Source: Ulota crispa
Lineage: Eukaryota; Streptophyta; Bryopsida; Orthotrichales; Orthotrichaceae
Length of the DNA: 64,000 nucleotides
Assembly (NCBI GenBank): GCA_963920765.1
Contig: OY987242.1
Coordinates: 4,428,789 to 4,492,788 of the forward strand
Direction of reading: 5' to 3'
Every line of letters starts with the position of its first letter. The first letter of the stretch is position 1. Shown here one piece after another: positions 421-55,222 of this stretch. The translations under genes were made by a program, and so were the position numbers. Below the pieces are notes generated by a model. It saw only the letters and a list, made by a program, of their open reading frames with translations, had not been told where the DNA came from and searched no databases.

Positions 421-841
421 GAGCACCTCCACCATTGGCTTCCCTATCCCCATTTGGATGAAGGGGGAGCCAAGATGGGGATAGGAAAAGACAAGCCCCA
501 CTAGTTCTTCTCCATAAGGGAGTTTTTCCTTCATGATTACTAAAATGAGTTGGGAGAGGTGGGTCAAGAGAGGAATTAGGAGTGAAAAGGGGAGGAGAGG
601 TGGGCCAAGAGAAAACAAAGGAATGAAAGGGGGTAACAAATTGCACTTTTTTTGGGAAAAGTGAGGATACCATTTATCATAATTGAGTTCCCTATATGAC
701 CCCTTGTATAGGGGATTGGAACTCCCTTTCATCTTGATTCTCTAAATATTTGAGGATAGAGGCTCTTGGTGGGAGGTGTTCTTCCCTATTGAGATGAATT
801 CTATCAAAATAAGATAGGGATGTCCCTTGGTGGAGATGCTC
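421..841. mobile_element. Tourist/PIF-Harbinger-like MITE
   Basis: The left end reads GAGCACCTCCACCA and the right end is its near mirror image (GGTGGAGATGCTC). TAA flanks both sides (418-420 and 842-844). A TAA/TTA three-base target duplication is the hallmark of PIF/Harbinger elements, and a GAGCATCTCCA-type tip is common in plant Tourist MITEs. The reading frames inside, which run across the element on the minus strand, have no recognisable domain and are treated as noise. The 421 bp length suits a non-autonomous element. Confidence 0.7.
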
Positions 842-1264
842 TAAGGGTTGCTTTACACTACAAGTTAAGGTTAAGGTTTCTAGCCTTTGACATGCCCAAT
901 ACTAGAATTTGGTTGGTTCATATTTTGAAAACGACCTCAAGGCTAATTTTTCAGAACATATTTTAATATATAAAAGACAAGATCTAACACGGCCCCAATT
1001 CCAAAAATTGGGTCTCCTAAAAAAGTGAAGCCAATTCTTGGCCCCAAGACTGTTGTCACATTTTATTATTATTATTTTTCAATAAAAACATTCTTTTGAG
1101 ATACTCAACACTGTACAATGAAGTAAAAATATCAAAGGCTTTGCATAATTTCTTTTCTTTATCCCTTTTCTCTTGAAATTTTCAAAATTTACTCTAGTGG
1201 CTTCAACTTTTTAGCCTCAAAGCCTTTACACACAAGAGATTTAGCCTCATATTACTCATATTAA

Positions 1265-1499
1265 GGCCTGGTTCAGACTATCATCCGTACAAAACACAGA
1301 AACTAGCATCACATTTGATGTTTCAACTGCTAGGGTCACTTCCACGTCATTGGATTGTTGAGTGTGCTATTTCAAGAGTGTTCCTTTACTGGCCAAGGTA
1401 GGTACCATCCTTGTAGCAAGCCCCAAAATTTCACTATCTTGTCCGCTGATGTGGACATTTAGGTTGGTGACATGGCAAGTTGAAGTATTGAACAAACCC
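1265..1499. mobile_element. Tourist-like MITE with TAA target duplication
   Basis: The left tip GGCCTGGTTCAGACT and the reverse complement of the right tip, GGGTTTGTTCAATAC, align as imperfect terminal repeats. TAA lies at 1262-1264 and 1500-1502. A stretch homologous to its interior, in the opposite orientation, begins near 33057 inside the MITE that splits the tRNA pseudogene, so this is a family with at least two members here. Confidence 0.6.
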
Positions 1500-1550
1500 T
1501 AAGTGTGAACCCTTTGACGGAAAAAAACTGATATTCCAACCAATGATGTT

Positions 1551-1680
1551 CACTACAAGAAAAACATGGTCGAATTTACAAAAAGTTGACAAAAATTGTG
1601 ACCTAATCTACAGTATACTATAGATTAGGTCACAATTTTTGTTAGCTTTTTGTAGATTTGACCATGTTTTTCTTGTAAAC
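1551..1680. mobile_element. CACTA-type MITE (near-complete hairpin)
   Basis: The left end is CACTACAAGAAAAAC, the canonical plant CACTA (En/Spm) tip. The right end is the mirrored GTTTTTCTTGTAAAC. Almost the whole 130 bp folds on itself around position 1617. A three-base target duplication GTT is visible at 1548-1550 and 1681-1683, as expected for CACTA elements. It has no coding capacity. Confidence 0.75.
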
Positions 1681-1794
1681 GTTCGAGAAAATTTGGTCCG
1701 GTGGTGAGTCCGACCCGGGCCTTATAATGGACACTTGGGGCCATTCTTGAGGCCAATTGGGGCTCAAATTTTGGTTGAAATGGCTTCAAGCGCA

Positions 1795-1945
1795 CACTAC
1801 AAGAAATTGTGTCCTAATTGACATGTCCAAATTGTCTAAATGTGTCCAAAATGACACCAAAACTGTCAAATTGGACAATTTCTATAGATTAGATTATGCT
1901 AATTTGGACATGTTTTTGTCATTTTGGACAGTTTCCCTTGTAGTG
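1795..1945. mobile_element. CACTA-type MITE, second copy
   Basis: It begins CACTACAAGAAAT and ends TTTCCCTTGTAGTG, the complementary CACTA tips. The interior is a degenerate inverted repeat rich in TTGGACA/TGTCCAA words. It lies only about 115 bp from the first CACTA MITE but has a different interior. No clear target duplication survives. Confidence 0.7.
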
Positions 1946-1981
1946 AGTTTTCATAGCTTAGTGAAAAGGGGGCCTAAGTGA

Positions 1982-3236
1982 AGCCTAAGCCCTAGGGAGA
2001 GGCATTCCGGACGTTGAGGAGCGAGCTCGCTAGTAATCGAGATCCGTGCAGCCAGCGAGCCGCTGCAGGCACCAGGACGACGAGGCCGGCGCTACCACAG
2101 CTGCGCTCTGCTGCTGCTGCTGCTCTGCTGGTGCAGCAGAACAGCTGCGGACATGACCACAACCACGCGAGCCAAGCCAGGCTCATCTCCTTTTCCATGA
2201 AGCAATTGCCAAAGCGACCAGCTTTCTCTGCCAAAGGTGCCGGAGCGATGGCGGTGGTGCGTTCCCTGGCAGTGCCGCAGTGAGCTTCACCTTCAAGACA
2301 GACACGAGGAGAGCGATACATCACTCCCGTGGTCCGAGGAGGGGAATGTTTGTTGGGTAGGAGCACCGCTACCATCATGGCGAGGTAAGTAGGGCGTACG
2401 TCCCTTTCGACGCCGATGTCAAGCGTTGCTAGTTACTAACTTAACTGTACTCATGAGCACGATCGGCAGCATCAGCCTAGCAGCAGCAGCAGCTGGTAGA
2501 ATGATCCTTGCCAGTTGGGTGCATCATCGCTAGCTGGCGCACCTTTCTACCTCCTTCCGCTTGTCTCCTTCCCCCACGCCATGCCCGGTGCGCATCAGCA
2601 TTCAATGCCTGCCAGTCCCATCCCTTGGCGCTGCTCCCAGACCCCTGCATGCCCACAGAATACCACTCCAGTCTATCGCACTTTGCTTTTCATTTCAGTA
2701 TCCCCTCGCAAGCTGCTTGCTTATGCATGCTCTCCCCTCGTCCAAAGCTCTCCCCGAGCGTTGAGCTGCTGGTGGTAGCACTCCAATGCCGACATTGCTC
2801 TTCTTCTCACTTCCCAACCAAAACCCAATCCATTCCTCTTCTCGTTGCGTCTTAGTATACAGCAGACTGGTCATGGCTGGCATTGCTTGCACCTTGTGCA
2901 CCAGGTCTCGTAGCCTTCGGTAGGTCTCCATTGAAATTTTGCGATCTTTTCCAAGGAGTGTTTTCGGAGTTGGTTTTTTGTGTGGGTATGGAAGGAAACT
3001 TGCATCAGTATGAACGGAAGAAAGCAGTTACGGTGTCCTGAGATCAGAAGCTTTAATGTTGAGTGCTCTTGTGGTAGTTGCAGCAATGTGATGAAAATCT
3101 TAACCTGATTCCGCTTGTACAGATATTAACGTGCAGTGGGAATGCGTCAGAGTGCACTCATGTGCGTCACGAAGGCTACCGGCACTGGAACTATCAAGGA
3201 TCGTTGTGGTGAAGTCCACATGATCTTGCAGGAAAA
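1982..3236 (+). other. GC-richer leader and promoter region upstream of the subtilase
   Basis: The base composition changes sharply from the AT-rich MITE block. CTG/CAG runs (2098-2135) can form a local hairpin. A good donor-like site (ATGGCGAG then GTAAGTAG) occurs near 2378-2390. Short open frames on both strands (up to 128 codons) show no recognisable domain, so I do not call a protein. The region most likely holds the promoter and non-coding leader exons of the downstream subtilase. Confidence 0.35.
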
Positions 3237-3352
3237 GTAAGGATTCTAGTCTTCCACTCTTTCCAGCCTTTCTGTCATTGAGTATTAAGCCCTACAAAGA
3301 GGAGAAACCTTGATAGTTGTACACATGTTCTGTATTTTTTTCTGTTATCCAG
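3237..3352 (+). other. Probable 5' UTR intron of the subtilase gene
   Basis: A donor GTAAGG at 3237 and a pyrimidine-rich tract ending CAG at 3352 bracket a 116 bp stretch just upstream of the subtilase start codon. This is inference from splice signals only; no transcript evidence is available. Confidence 0.35.
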
Positions 3353-3442
3353 GGCTGCTGCAGAGAAATGGATTGCAGGGTTGGCACTTGCGAGCTCTCA
3401 AGCTTCAACGCACGTGACCTGAGCTCAACAAAAAGAATCGAG

Positions 3443-8863
<5,421 letters not shown>

Positions 8864-10283
8864 GATGCTCCTGTTTCCTTCCTTCTCTCTGAGTTGATAC
8901 AAAACAGGCTTGCTCTCCCGCTTGCTCGATCTGCGGTAGAGGTTTCTTTTCTTTTTTTTTTTTCCTTTCGTAGCCATTTTTCTTAGATAGTATGATGATC
9001 GGTATTCTCTACAACTGAAGGCTCCCGAGGATCACCTTCTCGCAGCTTCTCGGCTCGTTTTCTCCACATTTTCCAGTGAGATTGTCTCGGTTGGTGCTGA
9101 ACATGTTGCTCTGTCATTTTTGCTCTTATGGCTATGGCATGGATTCTCTCCTTTTCCGTTTCTCGTTGCTGGAGCGACGACGCGCACTCATGCATGCATG
9201 CAGATAAATGATTTTTTTGGACAGAGTCATCCCATGTGTGCACGTTCAAGTTCTTTCAATTTCCACACCTATTGCGGGCTAGACTATTTGAAAAACTATC
9301 TCAAATAGTGTGACTTATCGTAAGTACTCTGACTCAAGTGGTTCAATTTTTTTAAGAAGATTAAGTATTGCAAGTATGTATGCAACTACAAAGTTTGTGA
9401 AGAATGCAACCTTATCCCCTGAAGGGCCCGAACGCCCTTTGTGGCAATAATGTGCTGTATTGCTGGTATTTGGGGATGTCGCGGCATTTTCAGACTTTTG
9501 TGTACATTGATGACTTGTAGGAAATTTCAAGCCGAATCTGATTGAGCATTTTTTTTGAGAAGAGACCTTGTTGAATTTTGCAATTTGAGGATTGTATCCG
9601 CACTTGCATATGGTATAGATACGGTACTTGATTTCTACGTCAACGAGGCCACCGTGTCTCCACAGCAACTCAAGCCATACTAGACACGTGGTTGTATTGT
9701 GAAATTGCATGGCTCATCTTTGAGTGACCTAGCGCTTGTTAAAGTCGCCTAAACCATGTGTATCTTGGTTTGCTATGGATACGTACCTGTATCTTGGAGG
9801 CCCAAGGGCCCTTCAAGGGTTATTGAGAGTGAGTATATGGTTAACACATTGGATTGCATGTCTGTCTTCTTGTCCATATGCTCAAAGTACCCAATTGAGT
9901 TCATGTCCGTTTAATGTAATCAACTTATAGTTGACTTCAAAAAAAGATTAAAAAAACTTACTCTATACATGTTGGTGATATTTATTGGTCTTAACATGAG
10001 CCATATCATGTAATAAAAATGAAAAATGATAATTTTATCTTTTCTTTATAGGGTCAAAAGTCCTAAAAGTACCTTAAAAAGCAACAATAGATAGACATCT
10101 TTATCCACGCTATCTTTTTTGTGCGCCTACTAGTGCTATTCAATAACCAAATCTCTCTGAAAGTAATAATCATGTGTAAGACACAGAGTTGTTATTTGAG
10201 GAACAACAAAAGGTTGTGACTAGAAAATGGGTGGAAGCATTACACTTTTCACATTGATTGGACACAATTCACCCAAGTTATTG
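8864..10283 (+). other. Subtilase 3' flank and intergenic DNA, no gene seen
   Basis: About 300 bp after the stop are pyrimidine-rich and probably contain the 3' UTR. Beyond that the sequence is AT-rich. A 131-codon minus-strand frame at 9315-9710 lacks any recognisable domain and has low-complexity composition, so it is not called. Confidence 0.5.
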
Positions 10284-10695
10284 TTAACCCTTTAACAACC
10301 AGTTGACCATTCTATGGTTGATCCAACCCCTTTTCCTTGTGTAGGAAGAGAATAGCAATGAATCTTGTGGTTAGCCAAAGAGGGCGTACATGGGGAATTG
10401 GGAAGTGAAAAGTTTAGGGCAATAACAAGGTCAATATGAGGTGGCATGTGGCCAAAGGGTTGAAAAAACTAAATGAGTACGGGCTGAAAATACACCAATG
10501 AATGCAAAAAGATGACCATAACAACTAAAGAGTGAGCATAATTCATGATGCATAACACTAAACTTTGCAAGATACTTCCATATGTACGGTCAGATCTGTG
10601 GTAAACATCTGTATTCAATATTTTTAAAATTTCCCCCAAATGGCCATACAAAGGATTGTCCACTCCAGAATTGACCACGGTTGTTAAAGGATTAA
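10284..10695. mobile_element. TTAA-bounded element, 412 bp
   Basis: The left end is TTAACCCTTTAACAACC and the right end, read in reverse complement, is TTAATCCTTTAACAACC. The inverted ends extend over about 25 bp, including a GGTCAA/TTGACC word. TTAA flanks both sides. The interior is AT-rich with no convincing reading frame. Confidence 0.65.
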
Positions 10696-15950: not shown

Positions 15951-16500
15951 ACACCAAAATTGAATCTTTGCTTGGTATACGCTACTATGTTTACAAATAC
16001 AAAGGCCATTTTCAGGAACTCAATTGTAATCTTCGTAAACACTCTACTTGAGATTGGTACGTGCTTATACCAAAAGCCTCCAAGATAGAGTTGGCCCAAA
16101 TAATATTCGTATAAGATGCACGTCCCATCACATTCAATGGTGTCTTCTTTTACATTATTGCCAAAGTAAAACAACCTTGACATGTACTTTCTTTTACTTT
16201 TTCCTAAGGTAAAAAGAAGTTATTTAACAACGTTTTGTTGTTGGGTGGTGCTTGTATATACTTTCCTTGTTTGGATAAACGTGGTTGAGGACGGGAGGTG
16301 AGAACAAAGAGAGGGAAACACAGACAAGCAGACAAGGGGAGCCTGGTGTGAGCAGAAAGGCAGAGAGGTTGGGCCAGGGGCTGAACGCACAGAGAGCGGA
16401 CAAAGGGGAGGGGCGTGGGGGGCTCTTTTCGTGGCCCGTCACTCCAGCCCCGCTTCGTACCCATTTTGCATTCTCGCTCTCTGCTTGTGTTCTTCGTCGC
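15951..16500 (+). other. Upstream region of eIF4B copy 1
   Basis: The sequence becomes purine-rich (GGGAGG, GAGAGAGG) and then pyrimidine-rich toward 16500. It probably contains the promoter and 5' UTR of the downstream gene. The very long minus-strand frame that crosses the gap here is an artefact of high GC and of the N run. Confidence 0.4.
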
Positions 16501-16505
16501 GTGTT

Positions 16506-16514
16506 TTAGGGTTT
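16506..16514 (+). promoter_or_regulatory. Telo-box in the eIF4B copy 1 leader
   Basis: TTAGGGTTT, 37 bp before the start codon, is the reverse of the plant telo-box AAACCCTAA. Telo-boxes are common near the 5' ends of plant ribosomal-protein and translation-factor genes. The paralogue at 46077 has the same motif in its leader. Confidence 0.55.
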
Positions 16515-16551
16515 CGTGCTCGCAGCAGCAGCGACGCCTGTCTGTGCAGCC

Positions 16552-18909
16552 ATGGCTCGGGCGTGGGGCGGAGCGGGCGCGTGGGCGCAGGAGGCCGAGC
16601 TCGCGGACCAGGAGGCCAAGGAGCGCGAGGCGCAGACGTACAAGGCGCCGGGCACCGTGAAGGAGGAGNNNNNNNNNNNNNNNNNNNNNNNNNNNNNNNN
16701 NNNNNNNNNNNNNNNNNNNNNNNNNNNNNNNNNNNNNNNNNNNNNNNNNNNNNNNNNNNNNNNNNNNNNNNNNNNNNNNNNNNNNNNNNNNNNNNNNNNN
16801 NNNNNNNNNNNNNNNNNNNNNNNNNNNNNNNNNNNNNNNNNNNNNNNNNNNNNNNNNNNNNNNNNNNNGACTACGGGGGCTTCCGCGGGGGCGCCAACGA
16901 CCGCGCCGGCGACCGCGAGGAGCGCCGCGGGGGCGGGTTCGGGGGCGGGTTCGGCGCGGAGCGCGAGGAGCGCGGTGGATTCGAGCGCGACGATGGGCCG
17001 TCGCGCGCGGACGCCGACGACAAGTGGGGGGCGTCGAAGAAGTTCGTGCCCAGCGAGCGTCCAAGCGAGCGTGGGGGCGAGCGGGGTGGCTACGAGGAGG
17101 ATCGCAGCCGCGCTGGGCGCGTGAGCGACCGGGACTTGCCATCCCGCGCGGACGAGGTGGACAACTGGGGATCGACGAAGAAGTTCGTGTCCGCGGGTCC
17201 GGCGGAGGGGTACAATGACCGCAGATCGTCAGGCAGGTATGTGGATGTTCGGAAGTGGCAAATGTGGGGTGTCGGTGGATGTTAGGGTTGGGGCGGTAGA
17301 GGGGTTGGTGAGGCGAGAGTTGATGGCAAAATGGGATTGTGGCCGATGCGGCACGGTTGGTGAGCGGAGATGCGTATCCGGAGGGAGTGGTGAGAGTGAT
17401 TGCTGTGAGTGATAATGCAGCGGCAGGGTGATGGGCAGGGATTGGATGGGATTTAGCGTGGGGCAGAATGGCGGAGGTGGTGCTAGGGTTGCGACGGTAG
17501 GGCGTGTGAAGGAGAGTGAGTGGCATGGGCAAGGGAGAGAGTTGGGAATGTTTGGGGGGGATTGGGATGGAGTTGCTGATCGTGGTGGTTGTGGAGTGGC
17601 AGGTACGAGGAGCGGAGAGTGAGCATGGGAGGATTCGAAGACCATCCTCGCGGGGATCGGGACATGCCGTCCCGAGCGGACGAGGTGGACAACTGGGGGA
17701 AGGGGAAGAAGTTCGTGCCGAGCGCGGCTCCGCTGAGCCGAGGGTCGAGCGGGGGGTTCGACTCGACGTACAGGGACGCGGGCGCGGGCGCGGACGCGGA
17801 TCGGTGGGCGCGGAAGGAGGGCGTGGCGAGGGAGTCGGATGCGCCGCGCGCGTCGGAGAGGCCGCGGTTGAAGCTGGCACCTCGAACTGTGCCGGTGGAG
17901 AGTCTGCCGCGGCCGGCGTCGTCGGGAGGGGAGGTGAATGGGGCGAAGGAGGGGTCGGTGGGGGAGGCGGAGCAGCAGTCATCGTCGCCGGCGCAGAGAC
18001 CGAAGGCGCGGTCGAATCCGTTCGGGGCGGCTCGGCCTCGGGAGGAGATTCTGGCGGAGAAGGGGCAGGACTACCGCAAGATGGACGCGGATCTGGAGGT
18101 TCCGCGGGAGAGGTTCGGGAGGCCCGGCAGCAGCCACTCGAACCGGCCCGGGAGCAGCCATTCGACGCGGCCGGGGAGCCGGCCCGGGACCCCCGGGGGT
18201 GTGTCGAGCAGGCCGGGGACGCCGGAAGTGCCGCGGTCGCGGCCGAGTCCGTTTGGGGATGCGCGGCCACGGGAGTCGAACTTGGTGGAGGCAAGGGGCA
18301 AGGACTCGCAGACGCTGGACGTGGACCTTGAGCGGCGGTTGGCCGAAGAGAGGTAGTTACAATGGCTATTGATGCTACCCTTTTGCCTTCGAATTTGCCG
18401 TGAAGATATGAGTTTTCTTTGAATGAATCAACAAATCTATGCGATCCGATTCTGTTTTTTTTGTATCAGCCTACGGTGAAAACCTTGCTTGTGCCATGTT
18501 TATTACTTTGAACGTGGCTCCTGTATAGAAGTGTCTAGACCTATTAAGTGAGAAGTTTTGGGCTGTAGATGTTTTTTTGCTGTTGCCTAGCGTACTGTTG
18601 CGTGTTTCTGTGTTACGGTAATCTGGGCAAAACCAAATTAGGCAAGAGTTGCTGGGACCGCCTTTTTAGGTCTTGGAGGGATTGCATTTGTAATTGGTAA
18701 ATATTATGTGCAAGTTGTAGTGAACGTGTAATCATTCTCATGCTGCGGGTATGGACGTGGTTCAATGAATTCACTTGGATGAGTTCATTTATGATTTGAA
18801 CGTGATCTGGTGGTGTCTTTTTATTTTGTTTCTTAACAGTGGTTTCGTGTTGTTGTGTTTTAGTGTCAAAGAAGACACTGAAGGGAATGCTGCTGGTTCC
18901 GAGGTGTGA
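16552..18909 (+). CDS. EIF4B: Eukaryotic translation initiation factor 4B, copy 1 (interrupted by gap)
   Basis: There are three exons: 16552-17236 (containing the 200-N gap), 17603-18352 and 18864-18909. Both introns are phase 2. The protein starts MARAWGGAGAWAQEAELADQ, the W-G-x-x-G-A-W-A start of plant eIF4B. It then carries Gly/Arg/Asp-rich RNA-binding segments, three repeats of the type (D)xWGxxKKFVP, and two PFGxARPRE motifs (SNPFGAARPREE and SPFGDARPRES). It ends VKEDTEGNAAGSEV. eIF4B binds RNA and stimulates the eIF4A/eIF4F helicase during 40S recruitment in the cytosol. A tempting in-frame stop at 18354 lies just past the GT donor, and splicing to 18864 keeps the frame. The missing part (including a segment like the AFPTLGDSL block) is present in copy 2. 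Confidence 0.9.
16669..16868. other. Assembly gap (200 N) in eIF4B copy 1 exon 1
   Basis: Exactly 200 N suggests a default gap length. Copy 2 carries the corresponding sequence, which is about 240 bp long. Confidence 0.99.
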
Positions 18910-20195: not shown

Positions 20196-22047
20196 TTAAC
20201 CCCTCATTGCCTAAGGTCCAAAGAGGCCTAAAGGCGTCCTTGCTTTTCAAGTGTTTTAATTCTCAATACTACTGGAGTACAAAAATCTCAATTGTACAAT
20301 CTTGTAGTGTGCATGTTGTAGATGATGTGGATCAAATTTCAGATCATTTGACCACATAGTTTGGAAGATTATAATGTTTTAGTGTAGAAAAAAGATGTTA
20401 AAATTTTCCTAAAAACAGATTTGGAGCGGAAATTTGAATTCTAAACCTACTCAAATGAAAAATAAATAAAATGTAAAGTGATTCAAACCACTATATAAAC
20501 ACATTGGTGAACAAAAATATCAATGAATACACTCATTTTGTTTGCAAAATTGTTTTGAAATGTCAAAAACAATGAAAGAAGTAGCAAAAATTTACATCTA
20601 TGGCTAAACCTCTCTCAATTAAAATGCTTCTCATTCACTCATAACTTCTTGGGTTCATATGAAATTTTAACTACAGTACTCTTACATAATGATGTGTAAT
20701 CCATGTTTTGGCATTCCAAGCAAGTTTGTGTAACAAACAACATAAATGGTATTTCAATCTCATATTGTTGGTATTTGATTCTCATGCAATCCCAATTAGT
20801 CATACCAAATTTTGGTTACTACAAACCAAAATCCTATTTTTGGTAAACTATTTTGTGTCAAAATCATGTTTTTACAAGACAACTGATTAAAACACATTGG
20901 TGATGAATTTTTGAGATTTGATTGCATGGGAATGTAGGAAACATCCATATGCACATTTTCCCTTCGAAAAAGAACTCTTTAAGTAACAAAATTATGATCA
21001 ACAAAGAGTTCAATGTGAGGTGTGGTAAGACCAAAATTTGTAAAGTAGATATTTTTTTATGATAATCAATTTTTGCCACTTGATTCATACGTTGTGACTA
21101 AATTTGTACCTTTGAATATGACCATATGTTTACTTAGCAAAAAACTAGTCAAAAAATAAAAATATCTACTTTACAAATTTTGGTCTTACCACACCCCACA
21201 TTGAACTCTTTGTTGATCATAATTTTGTTACTTAAGCGGGGGTTCTTTTTAGAAGGGAAAATGTGCGTATGGATGTTTCCTACATTCCCATGCAATCAAA
21301 TCTCAAAAATTCATCACCAATGTGTTTTAATCAGTTGTCTTATAAAACCACAATTTTGATACAAAACAGTTTACCAAAAATAGGATTTTGGTTTGTAGTA
21401 ACCAAAATTTGGTATGACTAATTGGGATTGCATGAGAATCAAATACCAACAATATGAGATTGAAATACCATTTATGTTGTTTGTAACACAAACTTGTTTG
21501 GAATGCCAAAACATGGATTACGTATCATTATGTAAGGGTATCGTACAATAACTACACTAGTATGCGCAACTTTTTCATTAACAAATATTGAAAACAAAGT
21601 TTCTATGGAGAAGTTATAAGCTACCAAAGTTCATTGTAATGCAAAAATGTGTGGATTTTGAACTTTGAGTTGCTCTCAAACATTCAAGGAAACTTGGATT
21701 GACATGAAAATTTTACCACAACTACTAAACTTTAGGGGGAATAAAACCCAACAAGTTATATTGAAAACAAACATTTGATGAAATAGATACAAGCCCCCAA
21801 AGTTGTAGTCATCACAATGCAATGTGGTGAACTCAAATTGACCTTGTGAACTTTGAATGGCTTTCACAACCTCAATATGTCTTAGATTGATTTGAAAATT
21901 TTACCATAGAGACTAGACTAGTATGCACAACTTTGCCAAAAATTCATTGGATTTGAACAATAAATGCAAAAGTTGCAACACCTAAAATTAGAGTAATAGA
22001 TTGCTAGAGAATAGAAATTGTCCCCTTAGGTGATGAGGGGTGGTTAA
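20196..22047. mobile_element. 1.85-kb TTAA-bounded element with internal palindrome
   Basis: The left end is TTAACCCCTCATTGCCTAAGG-like and the right end, reverse complemented, is TTAACCACCCCTCATCACC, alike apart from a three-base insertion. TTAA is at both edges. It is the largest member of the family here, yet it has no transposase-sized reading frame, so it is non-autonomous. Its middle is occupied by an 870-bp palindrome. Confidence 0.6.
20676..21545. repeat. Long inverted repeat, arms ~390-400 bp
   Basis: Sequence around 20700-21060 reappears reverse-complemented at 21150-21540, with a loop of about 90 bp near 21062-21150. The mirror-image 60-codon frames (20708 plus strand, 21327 minus strand) come from this symmetry and are not genes. 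The arms differ at scattered positions. Confidence 0.85.
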
Positions 22048-22528: not shown

Positions 22529-23322
22529 TTAACCCCTAAGTGCCCCAGGTGCAAGATCTTATTGCAACAAATTAAAAAACCAAGTCTCTTGACCTTGGAT
22601 TGACTTGTACTTGGTGGAGATTGTACCTGGGCTTAGGGGGGTAGGGTTACTGATCTTATGGAGTGGGTCAACAGGCTGGGCACGGTTTAGTCATACTAGA
22701 TTTGTGGTGGATTTATAGTCATAACCTGCAAGGTGCAAGGTGCAGTGGTTTACAACAGACATTTGCATTTTGGGTGACTGGTATGACTTCAAATCGCCGG
22801 TTACCAACTCCGCAATGAAGCGGGAGATTAGCACTGGCAACCACCTCGGTAGCTTACATGCGGGCAGAGGCCATCATGTCAGTCAATCAAGGTACAGCCT
22901 TGGTTGCTATTCCATTCAAGCCTCCAAGAACTGCAAGGACTTTGAATTTTCTGAAGGCCAGCCACAAACTAGATGGAGCCCAAAATTTACGTGGTAACCC
23001 TCAACACATCTGCAAATATTGTAGAAAAATTTCACGCCCTAAAATCTAACCTTGCTTACCTTACATCTAGGTCCTAAGACCTGAGCACCCTAAAACCCAA
23101 AACAATTACCTTGGTCAACTCATGTTTGACTCCTATAATGTGCTCAACCAAATAGTGAAGCCCCTTGAAAGTTATACCCACTTCTACAAGCTTAAGTAAG
23201 CTCCGAACTAGAACGGTCAATTTTGCTGGGTTAGACTCTAGAGAAAGTTTGAGGATTTTGAGTGCCAAGACCCATGCTGCATTGCATCACTCGGCAAAAA
23301 ACTGCGGGCTCTCAGGGATTAA
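22529..23322. mobile_element. TTAA-bounded element, 794 bp, with a coding-like insert
   Basis: The left end is TTAACCCCTAAGTGCCC and the right end in reverse complement is TTAATCCCTGAGAGCCC. Between about 22730 and 23040 the composition is richer in GC than the flanks. One plus-strand frame (22858-23049) ends with a CxxC-containing stretch (HICKYCRK). I do not recognise a family; it may be a captured fragment. Confidence 0.6.
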
Positions 23323-31433: not shown

Positions 31434-32580
31434 GGCTCGGTTTACTGCACATATGTTGATCTAGGCCCCACCCCTGTCAGGGCCAAAAATAAACACTCTC
31501 CATGGCTACCCCTTGTGATGAGCTGCCTAGAGCAACTTTAGCTTTTGTCATTGAGCTTCACATGGTCAAGTTAGGAAGAGGAAATTAAAATATTGGCATC
31601 AATTCCAAAGTTCCAATTGCAAGCATTTGGTCACAAAGATTTTTCAAGGTCCAAAATCACTAAAATTGTATAGTTGTGAGTAGGAGATGCTAAAAACAAC
31701 TCTTAGTGAAGTCTTTAGTGTGTTCATACGCTCATAATACTAACTTGAGGAGTTCTTAATCCTTAAGCGCCGAGGTGTATCACCGCAAATAAATGGGCCG
31801 AGTGTATTTGTAGGGGACGATTTTTGTCCCCTTTGTTGTTTAAGGGTTAAATAGTGAGATCGGGCACTCAAAACCATCATGTCAATCACCCAAAACCATC
31901 ACTTTGTCACCCACAACCATCACATTGTCACCCAAAACCAATTTTTTTCTATAACCGGCAATGACTGACAAAATTATGTGTCAAATTGGTCCGTAGGCAA
32001 CGCCATTGGGGACCATCAATTGTTGTTGCAATAAGAAATACTTAGACACAACACATAAGGTAGGAGCACCCCTCTCCGTTAGTGTCCTTACCCCCAATAC
32101 CTACTTATGTCAGTGATTCATTGCTGGATATAGAAAATTTTTGGTTTTGGATGACAATGTGATGGTTATTGGTGACAAAGTGATGGTTTTGGGTGATTGA
32201 CATGATGGTTTTGGGTGATTGACATGATGCTTTTGAGTGCCCCATCTCACTACTTAAGAACTCCCCAAGTTAGTATTATGAGCGTATGAGCACACTAAAG
32301 ACTTCACTAAGAGTTGTTTTTAGCATCTCCTACTCACAACTATACAATTTTAGTGATTTTGGACCTTGAAAAATCTTTGTGACCAAATGCTTGCAATTGG
32401 AACTTTGGAATTGATGCCAATATTTTGATTTCCTCTTCCTAACTTGACCACATGAAGCTCATTGACAGAAGCTCAAGTTGCTCTGGATAGCTCGTCATAA
32501 GGGGTAGCCACAAAGAGTGTTTATTTTTGGCCCTGACAAGGGCAAGGCCCAGATCGATGTATGTGCAATAAACTGAGCCG
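31434..32580. repeat. 1.15-kb palindrome with arms of about 480-530 bp
   Basis: Sequence from GGCTCGGTTTACTGC (left) to its mirror at 32565-32580 is repeated in inverted form around a loop of about 170 bp near 31955-32125. The left arm is longer because it carries the 91-bp TTAA insertion at 31756-31850. Confidence 0.8.
31756..31850. mobile_element. Short TTAA element present in only one palindrome arm
   Basis: Left tip TTAATCCTTAAGCGCC, right tip in reverse complement TTAACCCTTAAACAAC. The flanks are GGAGTTC-TTAA on the left and TTAA-ATAGTGAGA on the right. The opposite palindrome arm (around 32254) reads, in reverse complement, GGAGTTCTTAAGTAGTGAGA with a single TTAA and no insert. The second arm is therefore a natural empty site, and the target duplication is exactly TTAA. 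Confidence 0.88.
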
Positions 32581-32677: not shown

Positions 32678-32926
32678 TTAACCCCTGAGTGCTTAGAGTT
32701 GAAACAAAAAAAACTTGAATTTTGTGCAATCAAAGTGTCCATGTGGATTGAAAAACACAATCCACAAGATCCCACCATATGAATTGTTAGTGGAAAGCTT
32801 CTTCATCATGCTGGACTCGATTGGAAGTGGTTTCACCGAACGTGCAATGATATTATAATGGTCAAAATTGAGTTGACCTAGCTTTTTGAGAGAGATTATG
32901 ATGTCTCTCGAGCACTCAAGGGTTAA
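32678..32926. mobile_element. TTAA-bounded element, 249 bp
   Basis: The left tip is TTAACCCCTGAGTGCTTAGA and the right tip in reverse complement is TTAACCCTTGAGTGCTCGAG. TTAA is at both edges. It ends 14 bp before the tRNA pseudogene. Confidence 0.75.
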
Positions 32927-42234: not shown

Positions 42235-42575
42235 TATGAATGTATCTAATGAGATAAATTTTTGCCTTCCATGATGGACCGTTTATGATCACTTCTAAAA
42301 ATAAATCAGATGAAAAACAACTTTTATCTATAACACAAAATCTTTTTTCAGAGCTGGAGGACATTTTTTGTCCTCCTCGACATTTAAGGGTTAAGGTTTG
42401 TCTATTCTAGTTTTAACCCCTAGAGCACTGATGCCGACGTTTTTTGTCTAATGGATGACTGAAAACCACTCTATGGGATGAAAAAGTTGTTCTTTCATCA
42501 AATTTCTTTATAAAAGTGATCATGATTACATTATCTAACATGGAAGGCAAAAAAGTTATCTCACTGAATGTGTTT
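42235..42575. mobile_element. Two divergent half-elements with outward TTAA-CCC ends
   Basis: AAGGGTTAA (42386-42394) and TTAACCCC (42413-42420) face away from each other across 18 bp. Reading outward from each, the two halves are homologous (shared AAAAAGTTGTT, GATCA and TGGAAGGCAAAAA blocks). Each looks like one end of a TTAA-CCC element whose other end is missing. The arrangement is the opposite of a normal element. Confidence 0.55.
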
Positions 42576-43692: not shown

Positions 43693-46047
43693 CTAATCAG
43701 AACCAGGTGCGTCTTCAACAGCGCTCTCCTTGACACTGGAAAGGAAGAACAAACACAACATCAGAATCGTAGCAACAACGTGGTATCCCGACATTCGAAG
43801 AACAGAGATGGGATAACCCTTCAACAAAAGAAAACAGACTATAAAGTAGATGGTAAGAACATATCAATACGAATGCAAACCTACAATGAGATAGGATATT
43901 GGTTATGAGTAGTAGAGAAGCTTGAGATTAGACTTCTCAGATAATCCCAAACAAAACCAAAGACTCAAAATTGGAACCACGTTCAAAAATACAAAGGCAA
44001 AACAAATGAAAGGGTCAAACAGAGAAAGCCGAACGACTGAACCAACAAAAGCAACCAATCGAAATACAGTTGACAAACCAACACAATCAGAGAATCCATG
44101 TTTACTGTCGACCATAACTACTCAAGGTGACAGAGGCAAACAGGATTATGATAGTAACTACCTCTCCTCGGCCAACCGCCGCTCAAGGTCCACGTCCAGC
44201 GTCTGCGAGTCCTTGCCCCTTGCCTCCACCAAGTTCGACTCCCGTGGCCGCGCATCCCCAAACGGACTCGGCCGCGACCGCGGCACTTCCGGCGTCCCCG
44301 GCCTGCTCGACACACCCCCGGGGGTCCCGGGCCGGCTCCCCGGCCGCGTCGAATGGCTGCTCCCGGGCCGGTTCGAGTGGCTGCTGCCGGGCCTCCCGAA
44401 CCTCTCCCGCGGAACCTCCAGATCCGCGTCCATCTTGCGGTAGTCCTGCCCCTTCTCCGCCAGAATCTCCTCCCGAGGCCGAGCCGCCCCGAACGGATTC
44501 GACCGCGCCTTCGGTCTCTGCGCCGGCGACGATGACTGCTGCTCCGCCTCCCCCACCGACCCCCCCTTCGCCCCATTCACCTCCCCTCCCGACGACGCCG
44601 GCCGCGGCAGACTCTCCACCGGCACGCTTCGAGGCGCCAGCTTCAACCGCGGCCTCTCCGACGCGCGCGGCGCATCCGACTCCCTCGCCACGCCCTCCTT
44701 CCGCGCCCACCGATCCGCGTCCGCGCCCGCGCCCGCGTCCCTGTACGTCGAGTCGAACCCCCCGCTCGACCCTCGGCTCAGCGGAGCCGCGCTCGGCACG
44801 AACTTCTTCCCCTTCCCCCAGTTGTCCACCTCGTCCGCTCGGGACGGCATGTCCCGATCCCCGCGAGGATGGTCTTCGAATCCTCCCATGCTCACTCTCC
44901 GCTCCTCGTACCTGCCACTCCACAACCACCACGATCAGCAACTCCATCCCAATCCCCCCCAAACATTCCCAACTCTCTCCCTTGCCCATGCCACTCACTC
45001 TCCTTCACACGCCCTACCGTCGCAACCCTAGCACCACCTCCGCCATTCTGCCCCACGCTAAATCCCATCCAATCCCTGCCCATCACCCTGCCGCTGCATT
45101 ATCACTCACAGCAATCACTCTCACAACTCCCTCCGGATGCGCATCTCCGCTCACCAACCGTGCCGCATCGGCCACAATCCCATTTTGCCATCAATTCTCG
45201 CCTCACCAACCCCTTCAACCGCCCCAACCCTAACATCCACCGACACACCACATTTGCCACTTCCGCACATCCGCTTACCTGCCTGACGATCTGCGGTCAT
45301 TGTACCCTCCGCCGGACCCGCGGACACGAACTTCTTCGTCGATCCCCAGTTGTCCACCTCGTCCGCGCGGGATGGCAAGTCCCGGTCGCTCACGCGCCCA
45401 GCGCGGCTGCGATCCTCCTCGTAGCCACCCCGCTCGCCCCCACGCTCGCTTGGACNNNNNNNNNNNNNNNNNNNNNNNNNNNNNNNNNNNNNNNNNNNNN
45501 NNNNNNNNNNNNNNNNNNNNNNNNNNNNNNNNNNNNNNNNNNNNNNNNNNNNNNNNNNNNNNNNNNNNNNNNNNNNNNNNNNNNNNNNNNNNNNNNNNNN
45601 NNNNNNNNNNNNNNNNNNNNNNNNNNNNNNNNNNNNNNNNNNNNNNNNNNNNNNNGTCGTTGGCGCCCCCGCGGAAGCCCCCGTAGTCCTTGAACCCGCC
45701 CCCGAGCCCGCCAGCGGGCGCGTCGTCGTCGGCGCGCTCGCGCGGCCCCGTGGGCAGGCTGAGCAAACTCGTCGGTGGTGAGCTTGCCGCTGTCGGTGTA
45801 GGAGCTGCGCTGCTTGCCGCCGGGGCCGACGTACTTGCCGACCATGAGCTCGCTGAGCGACACCGTGACGCCCTTGTTCTTCTTCTTGCTGGGCTTGCTG
45901 CTCAGCGAGTCCCCCAGCGTCGGAAACGCCTCCTCCTTCACGGTGCCCGGCGCCTTGTACGTCTGCGCCTCGCGCTCCTTGGCCTCCTGGTCCGCGAGCT
46001 CGGCCTCCTGCGCCCACGCGCCCCGCTCCGCCCCACGCCCGAGCCAT
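43693..46047 (-). CDS. EIF4B: eIF4B paralogue, inverted copy 2, frame disturbed
   Basis: It has the same three-exon structure as copy 1, on the opposite strand: 45279-46047 (with a 200-N gap), 44162-44911 and 43693-43735. Exon 2 is 750 bp in both copies. By eye the proteins differ there only at about two residues (APRT/APRS and AKEG/AKGG). The last exon is diverged, ending VKESAVEDAPGSD. Exon 1 contains the block missing from copy 1 (AFPTLGDSLSSKPSKKKNK, then a conserved SLPTGPRER motif). Exon 1 has three one-base differences from the expected frame: an extra G at 46021-46024, an extra T near 45766, and a missing G near 45305. These could be base-calling errors beside a gap or true pseudogene damage. 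If intact, it has the same role as copy 1. Confidence 0.75.
45456..45655. other. Assembly gap (200 N) in eIF4B copy 2 exon 1
   Basis: Exactly 200 N. The missing part corresponds to the Gly/Arg-rich segment that is present in copy 1 at about 16890-17060. Confidence 0.99.
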
Positions 46048-46076
46048 GGCTGCACAGACAGGCGCAGCAGGAGTGC

Positions 46077-46085
46077 AAACCCTAA
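46077..46085 (-). promoter_or_regulatory. Telo-box in the eIF4B copy 2 leader
   Basis: AAACCCTAA on the plus strand lies about 30 bp upstream of the copy 2 start codon, mirroring the motif 37 bp upstream of copy 1. Confidence 0.5.
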
Positions 46086-46877
46086 TAGTCGCAACACTCG
46101 GGATGGCGAGAGCTTGAGGACTTGCCCTGCAGCGGAGGAGTCAGGCAGATGATGAACGAGAGTGCAAGCGCAAGTGTGCGAATGAGAAATCCTCGCTCCT
46201 TCTCGGCCCTCCGCTCCCCCACTCCCGCCCCGCCAGCCTCCCAGCCTCCCTCCCTGGACCCCACCTCTCCTCCCTGTCGGTTCCTGCCTTATTCATGTTT
46301 CCTGGATGAATAAAATTGAGAATGAACACTTATTTTCTATTTAAACCGGTCGTTTCCCATCCCTCCTCTGTTTACTTCAGCCTCGCACTACGGGTGAGCT
46401 GTCAAGTCCTGGCGGTGTTTGACATTTTTTTCAATTCTAGGCTACAGTTGATTGGCTGCTTAAGAAGTCATGTTCCAGGACTATTATTATCCCTCTCATG
46501 CCCCCAATCACAGTATCACACCAACCCCTTGGGCCTTGACTACCGAATTCATCCATTCTTGACAACATTCAAAGTACCTTCCCAAATTTGCGTTGCAAGG
46601 AAGCATTCAAAAAAAATTGAATGAAAAACATCATGGGAACACACGAAGGGTTGGGGAAATATCCAAAACCCACTACCAATTTTTTTTTTTTTTTTATTAG
46701 ACACGACATGGTTATTTCCATTTGATGGTAGTGTAGTGGCACTCCGATTTGGTGGATGGAATTTGAGAAATGCTCCGTACTAGGAAACGCAATTATTTGA
46801 CTTATCTTTCTCAGAAAATCATTGTAAGAATGTTTCTATGAATGAATATTTTAAAACTAGGACAATATAAATGGTCC
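46086..46877 (-). other. eIF4B copy 2 promoter region and flank
   Basis: A GC- and pyrimidine-rich stretch to about 46300 likely covers the promoter and 5' UTR. After it come AT-rich DNA and a poly-T run near 46681-46697. No gene seen. Confidence 0.4.
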
Positions 46878-47530
46878 TTAACCCCTAAATGCCCAAGGCT
46901 TTTTTGACATTTTTAGGAATTTGCTCTAAACTGAACAAAAAGCCAACATTTTGATAAGTTGTATCAAATTTTTTTAATTGTAATCATACAAATTCAATCT
47001 GGATATGTTAGACATCACATAGGAAAAAAAAACACAACAATACCACTTATGGATTGTAAGATTATTATATTTAATCATGAGGGTGTTAAAAGTGCAAAAA
47101 TGACTTCAAGTCTTTCAATCCTCTATTCACATGTCAAATCTAAAATGTTGGTCACCAAAAAAATATGAGGTTAAAGGGCATAACATACATAACTCCAATC
47201 TATTTACGATTTTTCAAAATCTCTTTTACATTTGTTTAAAATGAATTTCTTGTGTGAATTTTTCTTCAAGATCTAGTGTATTTGAGGCTCAATTTCATCA
47301 GCTCTCAACATTAAAAAAGTCAAGATTGCAATGGGCACCTTTGCACAAAATTTTGAATAGAAAATTCACAACCAGTAATTTTCAAATTTGGGTTTTTGAT
47401 GCTAAAGATAAACTTCAAAAAGAATAATCCTAAAATACTAAATACTAAAAATAGCAACTTAGTTAGGTTTTGTTGAACTTCAAAAGATTGTTGGATCCAA
47501 AATGTGGTGCCTTGGGCATTTAGGGGTTAA
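46878..47530. mobile_element. TTAA-bounded element, 653 bp, with perfect 22-bp termini
   Basis: The left end reads TTAACCCCTAAATGCCCAAG followed by GC, and the right end is its exact reverse complement over 22 bp. TTAA stands at both edges. It is the best-preserved member of the family. The interior is AT-rich and non-coding. Confidence 0.85.
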
Positions 47531-48930: not shown

Positions 48931-49516
48931 TTTACCCCTAAAGGACCAAGCCCCCATTTGGGGGACAAATGGGATTTTGGGCATGTACCTATGGCTACAC
49001 TACTTTGCGTGATTTTTTGGAACTTTTATGGATGATGGGGAATTCAAAGATTTACATGGGCATCTAGTTTTTCTTCATTTTGACGTTTCTTGAAGAAGTT
49101 TAAAATGAATTTCTGAAAACGGGTGAGATGGGGTAGCCCAAAATCGTCTTTAAAAATGGCATTTAAAACAAATAAAATTATGAAATAGGTTCTTTAGACT
49201 TATATATAGGTGGGAAGCTTTGAATCATTCAAAGCTCCCCACCTATATATAAGTTTGAAGAACCTATTTCATAATTTTATTTGTTTTAAATGCCATTGAA
49301 AGATTTTGGGCTGCCCGATCTCGCTTGTTTTTGAAAAATCATTTTTAACTTCTTCAATAAATGTCAAAATGAAGAAAAAATCAGATGCCCACATAGATAT
49401 TTGAAGTCCACACGTGTAATAAAAGTTTCAAAAAACTACAAAAAATAGATTAGCTGTAGGTACATGCCCAAAATCCATTTGTCCCTTGAGGGGACAGTTG
49501 GTCCTTTAGGGGTTAA
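48931..49516. mobile_element. TTAA-family foldback element, 586 bp
   Basis: Almost the whole element is self-complementary around 49225. The tips are TTTACCCCTAAAGGACC on the left (TTAA mutated to TTTA) and TTAACCCCTAAAGGACC on the right in reverse complement. Its right-hand TTAA (49513-49516) is also the left-hand TTAA of the next element. Confidence 0.78.
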
Positions 49517-49752
49517 CCCTTAAAGGACCGCTCTACGTATTACATAGTAAATTTGCTACCATATAGCTGGCATTTGCTACAAATAAAAAGTTTTAATTTG
49601 GGATCTTGACTAGCTCACTAGAACCACATTGATCTATATTCTATCTTCTTTGTTGATCTCAAATGTAGTAAAGGTGTGGATGCATTCCAAATACAAGAAA
49701 ATACTAAATACTGTGTTGGTTGCAAAGGGCTCCTCAGTCCTGTAAGGGTTAA
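49513..49752. mobile_element. TTAA-bounded element, 240 bp, middle of a chain
   Basis: Left tip TTAACCCTTAAAGGACCG, right tip in reverse complement TTAACCCTTACAGGACTG. It shares one TTAA with each neighbour (49513-49516 and 49749-49752). Confidence 0.78.
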
Positions 49753-50705
49753 CCCCTAAAGGACCAAACCTTTTTTTCTGTGAAAATCACTCAAAACTGC
49801 CACATATGGGGGAATGAATAGACATGTAGAAAATAAAGTTTTTTTGGAAATCCAACTATAGGATCTTGCCCTAGACTATGGGAGGTACTTGTGGGAAAAA
49901 GTTCAGCTCATTCTAGTTGTAGAGGAGTGAGATATTCACATTTGAAGTGAAAAAAAAGTTTTTTCACTGCTGCCCAAAAATTTTAGAAGCCTTTGACCTC
50001 TCCTATATCAAAAAAATTGCTCTATGCAAAGTTGAGCTTTATTTTTTTTCATGTAAAAGACCAAGTTAGGTATGTGTGGGAGAATTTTCAAATGAAACTA
50101 AGGTGTGGATCATACTTTGTAAAATCCTGCAATGCAGTAAGGTCATGAAATTTGTACATACACTAGGCAAAATTGGAGGATTTATGTATAATTTAGAAAC
50201 TTGAATTACTTTGATCCAAATGGTGAAAACCAAGGAATCTTAGTCTACTACAACTTACAAAAAAAGAAGTCAAAAAACAAATACACAAAGAGCTCAAAAA
50301 AGTAAAGCAACAAGTTTTACTTGGAGGAAAATGAATGGACGTTTGGGAGTTCCATACCTACCTGCAAACTAAAACTTCTCATAACTTTCATCTCATCTAT
50401 CAAAATTGAATGATTCAAAGCTTCCCAAGTACATAAAAATCTAAAGAACCAATTTCAAATATTAATTTTAAAAAAATTGCAATTTTTTTTTTTTTTTTTG
50501 TGCTTGATTCTCTCCTATTTTTCAGTTATTCTTGGATAACTTCTTCAATAAATGTCGGAATGAAGACAAAATTAGATGCCCACGTAGATCTTTGAATTCC
50601 CATCTTCAATAAAAGTTTCAAAAAATCATGCAAAGTAGTTTAGCCATAGGTACATGCCCGAAATCCCAAATGTCCCATGAATGGACACTGGTCCTTTAGG
50701 GTTAA
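49749..50705. mobile_element. TTAA-bounded element, 957 bp, end of a chain
   Basis: Left tip TTAACCCCTAAAGGACCA, right tip in reverse complement TTAACCCTAAAGGACCAG. The last 70 bp resemble the right end of the 48931 element (GGTACATGCCC, AAATCCC, TTTGTCCC-like words), so the two are related although their left interiors differ. A poly-T run lies near 50482-50500. Confidence 0.75.
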
Positions 50706-54447: not shown

Positions 54448-54883
54448 TTAACCCCTAAAGGCCCCAGGGCCCAAGGGGGTAAGGGCAAAACATAGATGTA
54501 TGGTACTTTTGTAATTTTAATGAAGTTTGCTTCAAAAGGGAAAATAAGAATCATAATGTCTAATAATTATCCATATGGTCAAACACTCAAAAAAAGTTTT
54601 GGATATTTATGTAATAAATTTAGAAGTATTTACCATTTAATATTCACCAAAATTACAAATTTTACGCATAGATTTCAAAATTTGGTAAAATAGATTAAAA
54701 ATAGATATTTTATCCTATACTTCAAAAATGCAAGGAGAAAACATCTTTAGTTTCCCAAAATAGTAAATTTTACAGCACTAGCAAATATTGAAATGTTTGT
54801 TTTTGAAAAATTCTCCTTGGTGGAGTTTAACTTGAATTGACATAATTCAAGTTAAGTTGAAAAGTAGACTTAATTTCCTATTA

Positions 54884-54934
<51 letters not shown>

Positions 54935-55006
54935 AAATTTGTCTCAGGCAGCCCGAAAAAAATGGGGAATGATTAGAAAATGGTTGATTAGATGCTAAGG
55001 GGTTAA
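54448..55006. mobile_element. TTAA-bounded element, 559 bp, with 50-bp poly(A)
   Basis: Left tip TTAACCCCTAAAGGCCCC, right tip in reverse complement TTAACCCCTTAGCATC, so only about nine terminal bases match well. An uninterrupted run of about 50 A lies at 54882-54931. The right TTAA (55003-55006) is shared with the next element. Confidence 0.6.
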
Positions 55007-55222
55007 CCCTTAAGCACCCTAGCGACAGGATCCTTTTGTTGGGGCCCACAACTTTATCTCACTTTTTCTCTTAATTTGTACAGTGAAAATAGTCATGGAT
55101 GGTCCCCATCAGCATAGAAGGTACCTTTTTCAAATCCTACGGTCACTTTTTCAAGCTGTGGTGACCATTAAACCCCCATTTTCTCTTAAATCCTAAAATA
55201 ACTCTGGGCACTCAGGGGTTAA
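55003..55222. mobile_element. TTAA-bounded element, 220 bp
   Basis: Left tip TTAACCCTTAAGCACCC, right tip in reverse complement TTAACCCCTGAGTGCCC. It abuts the preceding element at one common TTAA. Confidence 0.75.

Follow-up and report, generated by a model that had tools for sequence, protein, structure and literature searches.

The piggyBac transposon is a standard transposon of genome engineering and is known, and has been studied, mainly from animals. The closest described systems are piggyBac of Trichoplusia ni and piggyBat of Myotis, which combine a TTAA target and tips starting with CCC with a DDD transposase of the Pfam family DDE_Tnp_1_7 (PF13843), followed by a cysteine-rich domain (CRD); a palindrome is placed at bp 17–33 of one end in passages of PMC7351741. 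In the moth element, a dimer of the CRD binds bp 17–33 of one end only, with minor groove and symmetry both centred near bp 25 (passages of PMC7351741 and PMC11707139). PiggyBac-class MITEs have been assigned in insects (iMITEdb) and angiosperms by target-site duplication and tips (PMC5199201, PMC10004981, in part), and the seven superfamilies of angiosperm MITEs include PiggyBac (PMC10004981). The first-pass annotation of the DNA described here took piggyBac not to be established in land plants; this needs correcting, as occurrence in fungi and plants is stated in passages of PMC8086355 and PMC10813416, in addition to the angiosperm MITEs. Repeat tables give counts, with 1230 PiggyBac elements in C-fern (PMC6890710) and one in Stipa (PMC8319324).

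We analysed a stretch of 64,000 nucleotides (the window) from the moss Ulota crispa, whose genome assembly comprises 274.8 Mb in 157 contigs. The tips, the TTAA target, the PF13843 DDD transposase with its CRD and the palindrome inside one end all have counterparts here. The differences from piggyBac and piggyBat are the plant host, the far diverged transposases, palindrome letters that change from family to family, an element family of ∼5.0 kb (elements of 6.0 and 6.6 kb are only plausible) and the very high number of MITEs. The fern and grass tables provide counts, and the described PiggyBac-class MITEs were recognized from their target-site duplications and tips; in this genome the same ends are also found on a transposase-coding partner, which moves the assignment of plant piggyBac from tips alone to tips plus transposase. 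Plant piggyBac is already known, and the U. crispa case is unusually abundant; a literature search, with subscription papers mostly outside it, returned no moss piggyBac described with both transposase and ends. Our reading, held with high confidence, is that the window carries piggyBac-superfamily MITEs presumably mobilised by DDD transposases encoded elsewhere in the moss genome.

Tips and target site

The first-pass annotation had recognized a piggyBac-like TTAA/CCC transposon family of at least a dozen elements in the window, twelve of them listed, and the family itself is borne out. Direct reading of the ends gave a tip-like sequence at 24 of 24, with 21 fitting TTAA[CT]CC[CT]T; the misfits are the 48931 end, which starts TTTA, the 22047 end (TTAACCACCCC) and the 50705 end, which lacks one C (TTAACCCTAAAGG). 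One end each of the 412, 794 and 95 bp elements (Table 1) reads TTAATCC. A scan of both strands of the window found 24 occurrences of TTAA[CT]CC[CT]T, compared with a mean of 4.0 and a maximum of 10 in 60 first-order Markov resamplings. For the most part the matches switch orientation from one to the next, as is required of element ends, and form facing pairs.

Table 1. Tips and elements in the window (window coordinates)
Feature	Position	Strand	Evidence
79 bp hairpin-like element	4053..4131	+	81% self-complementary; genome copies
412 bp candidate element	10284..10695	+	Tips; about 30 bp inverted ends (83%)
Two tips around palindromic genomic repeat	20196..22047	+	90% self-complementary inside
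794 bp older element	22529..23322	+	One full-length copy at 74%
95 bp element	31756..31850	+	Element-free copies of target site
249 bp candidate element	32678..32926	+	TTAACCC[CT]TGAGTGCT tips
Pair formed by the tips at 42394 and 42413, facing away from each other	42394..42413	.	Pattern scan
Extra tip beyond the first-pass list, among the 24	42394	-	Pattern scan
Extra tip beyond the first-pass list, among the 24	42413	+	Pattern scan
653 bp non-autonomous element	46878..47530	+	Inverted tips TTAA-CCCCTAAATGCCCAAGGC; the two ends agree over 22 bp
586 bp palindromic element, same cluster as 49749..50705	48931..49516	+	Left end TTTA; clustering
240 bp element	49513..49752	+	One TTAA common with each neighbour; clusters with L028:3921–4172
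957 bp non-autonomous element, largest sampled cluster (cluster 0)	49749..50705	+	Genome copies TTAA to TTAA
Extra tip beyond the first-pass list, among the 24	51100	+	Pattern scan
559 bp element	54448..55006	+	Genome copies near-exact TTAA to TTAA
220 bp candidate element	55003..55222	+	Tips; TTAA common with 54448..55006

Genome-wide, the exact 12-base tip word TTAACCCCTAAA occurs 30,972 times (15,477 + 15,495), enough for some 15,000 elements, compared with 77 (41 + 36) for the reversed-word control; TTAACCCCTAAATGCC occurs 4241 times (2118 + 2123) against no reversed controls. The window together with 20 stretches of contig C1, each of 10 kb, makes up a sample of 263 kb that contains 118 tips; the density of the exact word in it is about twice that of the whole genome. 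The inverted tips are mostly about 15–22 bp in length with a CCCC or CCCT start, and the outermost T of TTAA, a position that the scan left free, is present in 88% of 113 tips. At half-length coverage, the 42 candidate elements of the sample (a few are alternatives that overlap one another) form 16 clusters, ten of them singletons; the bodies thus differ while the tips agree, as the first-pass annotation had remarked.

The TTAA target site is duplicated on insertion. The joined flanks of the 95 bp element with one TTAA match two copies of the same repeat that lack the element and have a single TTAA, one in the window at 32357–32163 (93%) and one at L023:8268–8074 (84%). A further empty-site case (L011:5905–6628) is less clean since it sits within a palindromic repeat, and several other joined flanks match relatives without TTAA at the joining point. 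The duplication is also evident from the 653 bp family, in which the ends of seven copies were read and six of these copies are flanked by TTAA on either side within unrelated sequence; the seventh has TTAAAACCCC on the right.

Abutting elements often share a single TTAA, with ten cases compared with 2.1 expected in stretches L010–L029 plus the window. Genome-wide, AGGGGTTAACCCCT is found at 876 places, about threefold over a rough expectation of about 280, and a strong preference for abutting insertion was therefore dropped in favour of a mild effect.

Element families in the window

The 653 bp element has perfect inverted arms of 23 nt, counting one flanking base, and belongs to a repeat family. 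Of 4432 first-look candidates, 40 matches were scored, its own copy among them, and all are 88–100% identical to it; 33 of them span exactly bases 1–653 and the remaining seven lie within four bases. Genome copies likewise support TTAA boundaries, exactly or nearly, for four other elements. The 957 bp element has 42 matches at 80–100%, one of them a short partial (40 scored of 9864 first-look candidates). For the 559 bp element, in which TTAA to TTAA corresponds to query bases 101–659, six matches besides its own start at 100–102 and end at 659–662 (80–82% identity), and most others end at about 540–560. Among the best 39 non-self matches of the 79 bp element (40 scored of 488 candidates), 11 cover exactly bases 11–89 of the 99-base query, from TTAA to TTAA, and 32 lie within four bases of both ends. 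The single full-length copy of the 794 bp element spans exactly query bases 101–894, and several other matches start at 99–101 or end at 894–895.

Most of the twelve listed elements therefore have evidence beyond their tips: genome copies for these five, empty sites for the 95 bp element and clustering for the 586 and 240 bp elements. The 412, 249 and 220 bp elements are candidates by their tips. The longest, 20196–22047, on which a range of interiors up to 1.85 kb had been based, is not supported as one element, as only the window itself spans the two tips among 139 matches (40 scored of 3370 candidates); its copies correspond to the inner palindromic repeat (about query 577–1455, window 20672–21550). 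No reading frame of more than 77 codons is present between these tips. The inner repeat, commonly of about 668 bp, occurs genome-wide and is locally clustered (3370 first-look candidates).

Transposases in the genome

The first-pass annotation saw no transposase in the window and took an autonomous partner to lie elsewhere or to be extinct; transposases are indeed encoded elsewhere in the genome. A tblastn search of the window and stretches L001–L029 with the moth catalytic core gave chance-level matches only (best E value of 0.77). A profile search of the genome with PF13843 (528 candidates, 116 scored) gave 120 matches with a best E value of 1.3e-73, all listed matches being over the cut-off; the same profile has no matches in 14 control genomes. 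Only ten of the 120 are free of stops, which indicates that much of the machinery has decayed. Together with the abundance of tips, these matches constitute a new reservoir of piggyBac variants. The stop-free sequences P0001 (locus L034) and P0002 (locus L035) match solely DDE_Tnp_1_7 in Pfam at E values up to 0.001 and, in the PDB, solely piggyBac (6x67) and piggyBat (9c0f) at E values up to 1.

The catalytic DDD of the piggyBac superfamily is seen at L033, with the motifs TVDE, CDNFF and EVDLIDQ, and at L035, which has equivalents. At L034 the third D is replaced by N, and the motifs of L031 and L032 are incompletely matched by the search pattern. By eye, a cysteine-rich stretch follows the catalytic domain in frame at four of the five loci L031–L035 (in frame at L032 and behind a stop at L031, L033 and L035), and none was seen behind the L034 domain; a strict cysteine-rich pattern matches two of the five, L031 and L035. 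These stretches correspond to the C-terminal CRD of the superfamily. Shortly behind that of L032 lies an extended simple repeat with the reading HTYIHTYI.

A transposase bounded by the same tips was found in at least one family. At L033 the tip pair 1963–6989 (5027 bp) encloses the transposase; the wider pairs 530–9654 (14/16) and 1963–9654 (12/16, equal to 1963–6989) score as high or higher, and copies were therefore needed to fix the boundaries. With queries of 100 bases of flank and 600 bases of element, two other good copies, on C10 and C8, start at query base 101 and end at 600 or 601; both are also PF13843 matches. A match on C11 is diverged (70–74%). The copies on C3 and C8 have TTAA at both ends, that on C10 has TTCA on the left, and the flanks differ. 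One piggyBac transposase family thus sits between the same tips in three copies of ∼5.0 kb.

Tips are so common that finding a transposase between two of them proves little by itself. Five transposase loci were read together with wide flanks; L033 is tip-bounded through its copies and two have plausible candidate boundaries: L034, with similar tips at 729–7335 that were picked by eye and lie outside the top ungapped pairs, and a C4 copy at 4126481–4132490, with tips at 12/16 and a wider pair at 13. The remaining two were rejected as tip-bounded, the C7 locus being ambiguous and L035 lacking a recognizable tip within the surrounding 10 kb. A 389-codon open frame at L035:4314–5480 (C2:34594948–34595949) encodes a piggyBac transposase domain with all three catalytic motifs; it may be a gene captured by the host or belong to an element whose ends have diverged. 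At L060 (C1:1180100–1182500) a stop-free piggyBac transposase is read in two frames, and the ∼270 bp between them may represent an intron; the 2.4 kb of this stretch contain no tips.

The 653 bp family has siblings that carry the end of a transposase-bearing element. L041:690–1339 (650 bp) is 84% identical to the window copy over 577 bp, whereas its terminal 38 bp match the first 38 bp of the 5 kb transposon at 89%. A 654 bp relative at L013 has 30 bp in common with the transposon end (87%) and L040 has 36 bp (94%), while the window copy and the transposon end have nothing in common beyond the tip core. This is the only window family with such a sibling, and most families are linked to a particular transposase by tip class only.

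In the mechanism that we propose, larger elements elsewhere in the genome would supply the transposase, a DDD enzyme that carries a cysteine-rich domain at its C terminus. This enzyme would recognize the CCC-starting tip together with a palindrome whose centre lies 25 bp in from one of the ends, cut the element out at TTAA and paste it into another TTAA. The window MITEs would have been moved in trans by the transposases of this genome, and excision would be footprint-free by analogy with moth piggyBac. MITE bodies of varied origin would retain just the parts that the transposase requires, with an occasional exchange of ends, which is probably why the bodies differ while the tips agree.

Assignment to the piggyBac superfamily

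The MITEs might instead have been moved by Kolobok or another TTAA-duplicating superfamily such as Sola3, with the piggyBac transposases as bystanders; we regard this as very improbable. The Kolobok transposase differs from that of piggyBac. Kolobok also produces TTAA duplications, so that this part of the signature on which the first-pass annotation relied is not specific, but its termini are given as 5′-RR and YY-3′ in passages of PMC9587614, whereas the tips here are CCC...GGG. Moreover, these tips are shared by a family of piggyBac transposase elements, and a sibling of the 653 bp family carries one of its ends; the assignment to piggyBac is thereby supported. The two checks suggested in the first-pass annotation, on TTAA-flanked genome copies and on a transposase between such tips, thus both came out in favour of piggyBac.

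Still less probable are PIF/Harbinger or Tc1/mariner MITEs, with target-site duplications of TWA or TA, that favour TTAA by chance. Both are among the plant MITE superfamilies (as listed in PMC10004981), and a TA duplication within a strict TTAA would yield the same empty site. Against them stand the outermost T, present in most tips without having been required, and the piggyBac transposase found between such tips; a 3 bp TTA or TAA duplication, as in the TWA of PIF/Harbinger (Tourist), does not fit the symmetric TTAA ends. The resemblance of CCCCTAAA to CCCTAAA, the plant telomere unit, suggests telomere-like repeats or chance, a negligible prospect in view of the facing pairs and reversed-word controls and one excluded by the family boundaries and empty sites.

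A palindrome inside one end

The piggyBac reading extends to the interior of the ends. With centre 29 (counting TTAA; bp 25 of the element), 19 of 100 tips pair at at least five of six places, compared with eight for the next best of 118 centres scanned and a mean of 1.2 for the other centres. After dereplication the palindrome remains in 11 of 56 tips (next best centre, six), and neither 19/100 nor 11/56 was reached in any of 2000 trials in which halves were re-dealt among tips; the tips used for this test are those that had first drawn attention to centre 29. Tips with arms of at least six number 20 at stretch 19–46 and 11 at the control stretch 71–98 (shuffles, 2.3). In the window, the 586 bp element has the palindrome at its right tip with six of six pairs and the 42394 (-) tip has one with 8 bp arms centred at position 29; the left end of the 5 kb transposon fits at five of six. 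The remaining 81 of the 100 sampled tips are below threshold, a shortfall explained only in part by a one-ended layout. A palindrome within tip positions 12–21 was discarded, the scores there being weak and the strong place being 29.

The letters of the palindrome differ (TGTCCC..GGGACA, CACCCAA..TTGGGTG, GGAGGACA..TGTCCTCC and others). By analogy with moth piggyBac, it would look like a dimer-bound site of changing specificity, with a dimer of the cysteine-rich domain as the presumed partner. A fixed-place, variable-letter palindrome would offer a way to read the DNA choice of this domain from sequence. More tentatively, and with some doubt on balance, the moss-lineage piggyBac may have split into several lineages of transposase. 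Every lineage would have a distinct end palindrome, always at bp 25, that is recognized by the cysteine-rich domain of that lineage, and MITE bodies would have passed from one transposase to another by swapping ends; the 653 bp body normally has its own right tip, but one sibling carries the 5 kb transposon end. If so, the palindromes, which change letters and keep symmetry and place, would be a natural record of protein–DNA co-evolution. A weaker, secondary palindrome excess is found near positions 84–90 (20 of 100 tips with arms of at least five; eight of 100 at centre 90) and is possibly a second binding site.

Other features

The window also contains inverted copies of a GC-rich gene at 16204–18372 and 44118–46097, which we take to be eIF4B-like. 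Their frames are nearly alike by eye and each copy holds a 200-base run of N; the pair may stem from a recent duplication in inverted orientation or from the assembly. In keeping with a moss genome, stretch L020 encodes a 350-residue frame with Pfam chalcone synthase domains, the best solved relatives of which, both at 697 bits, are 6dx7, presumably the Physcomitrella enzyme, and 9jl6.
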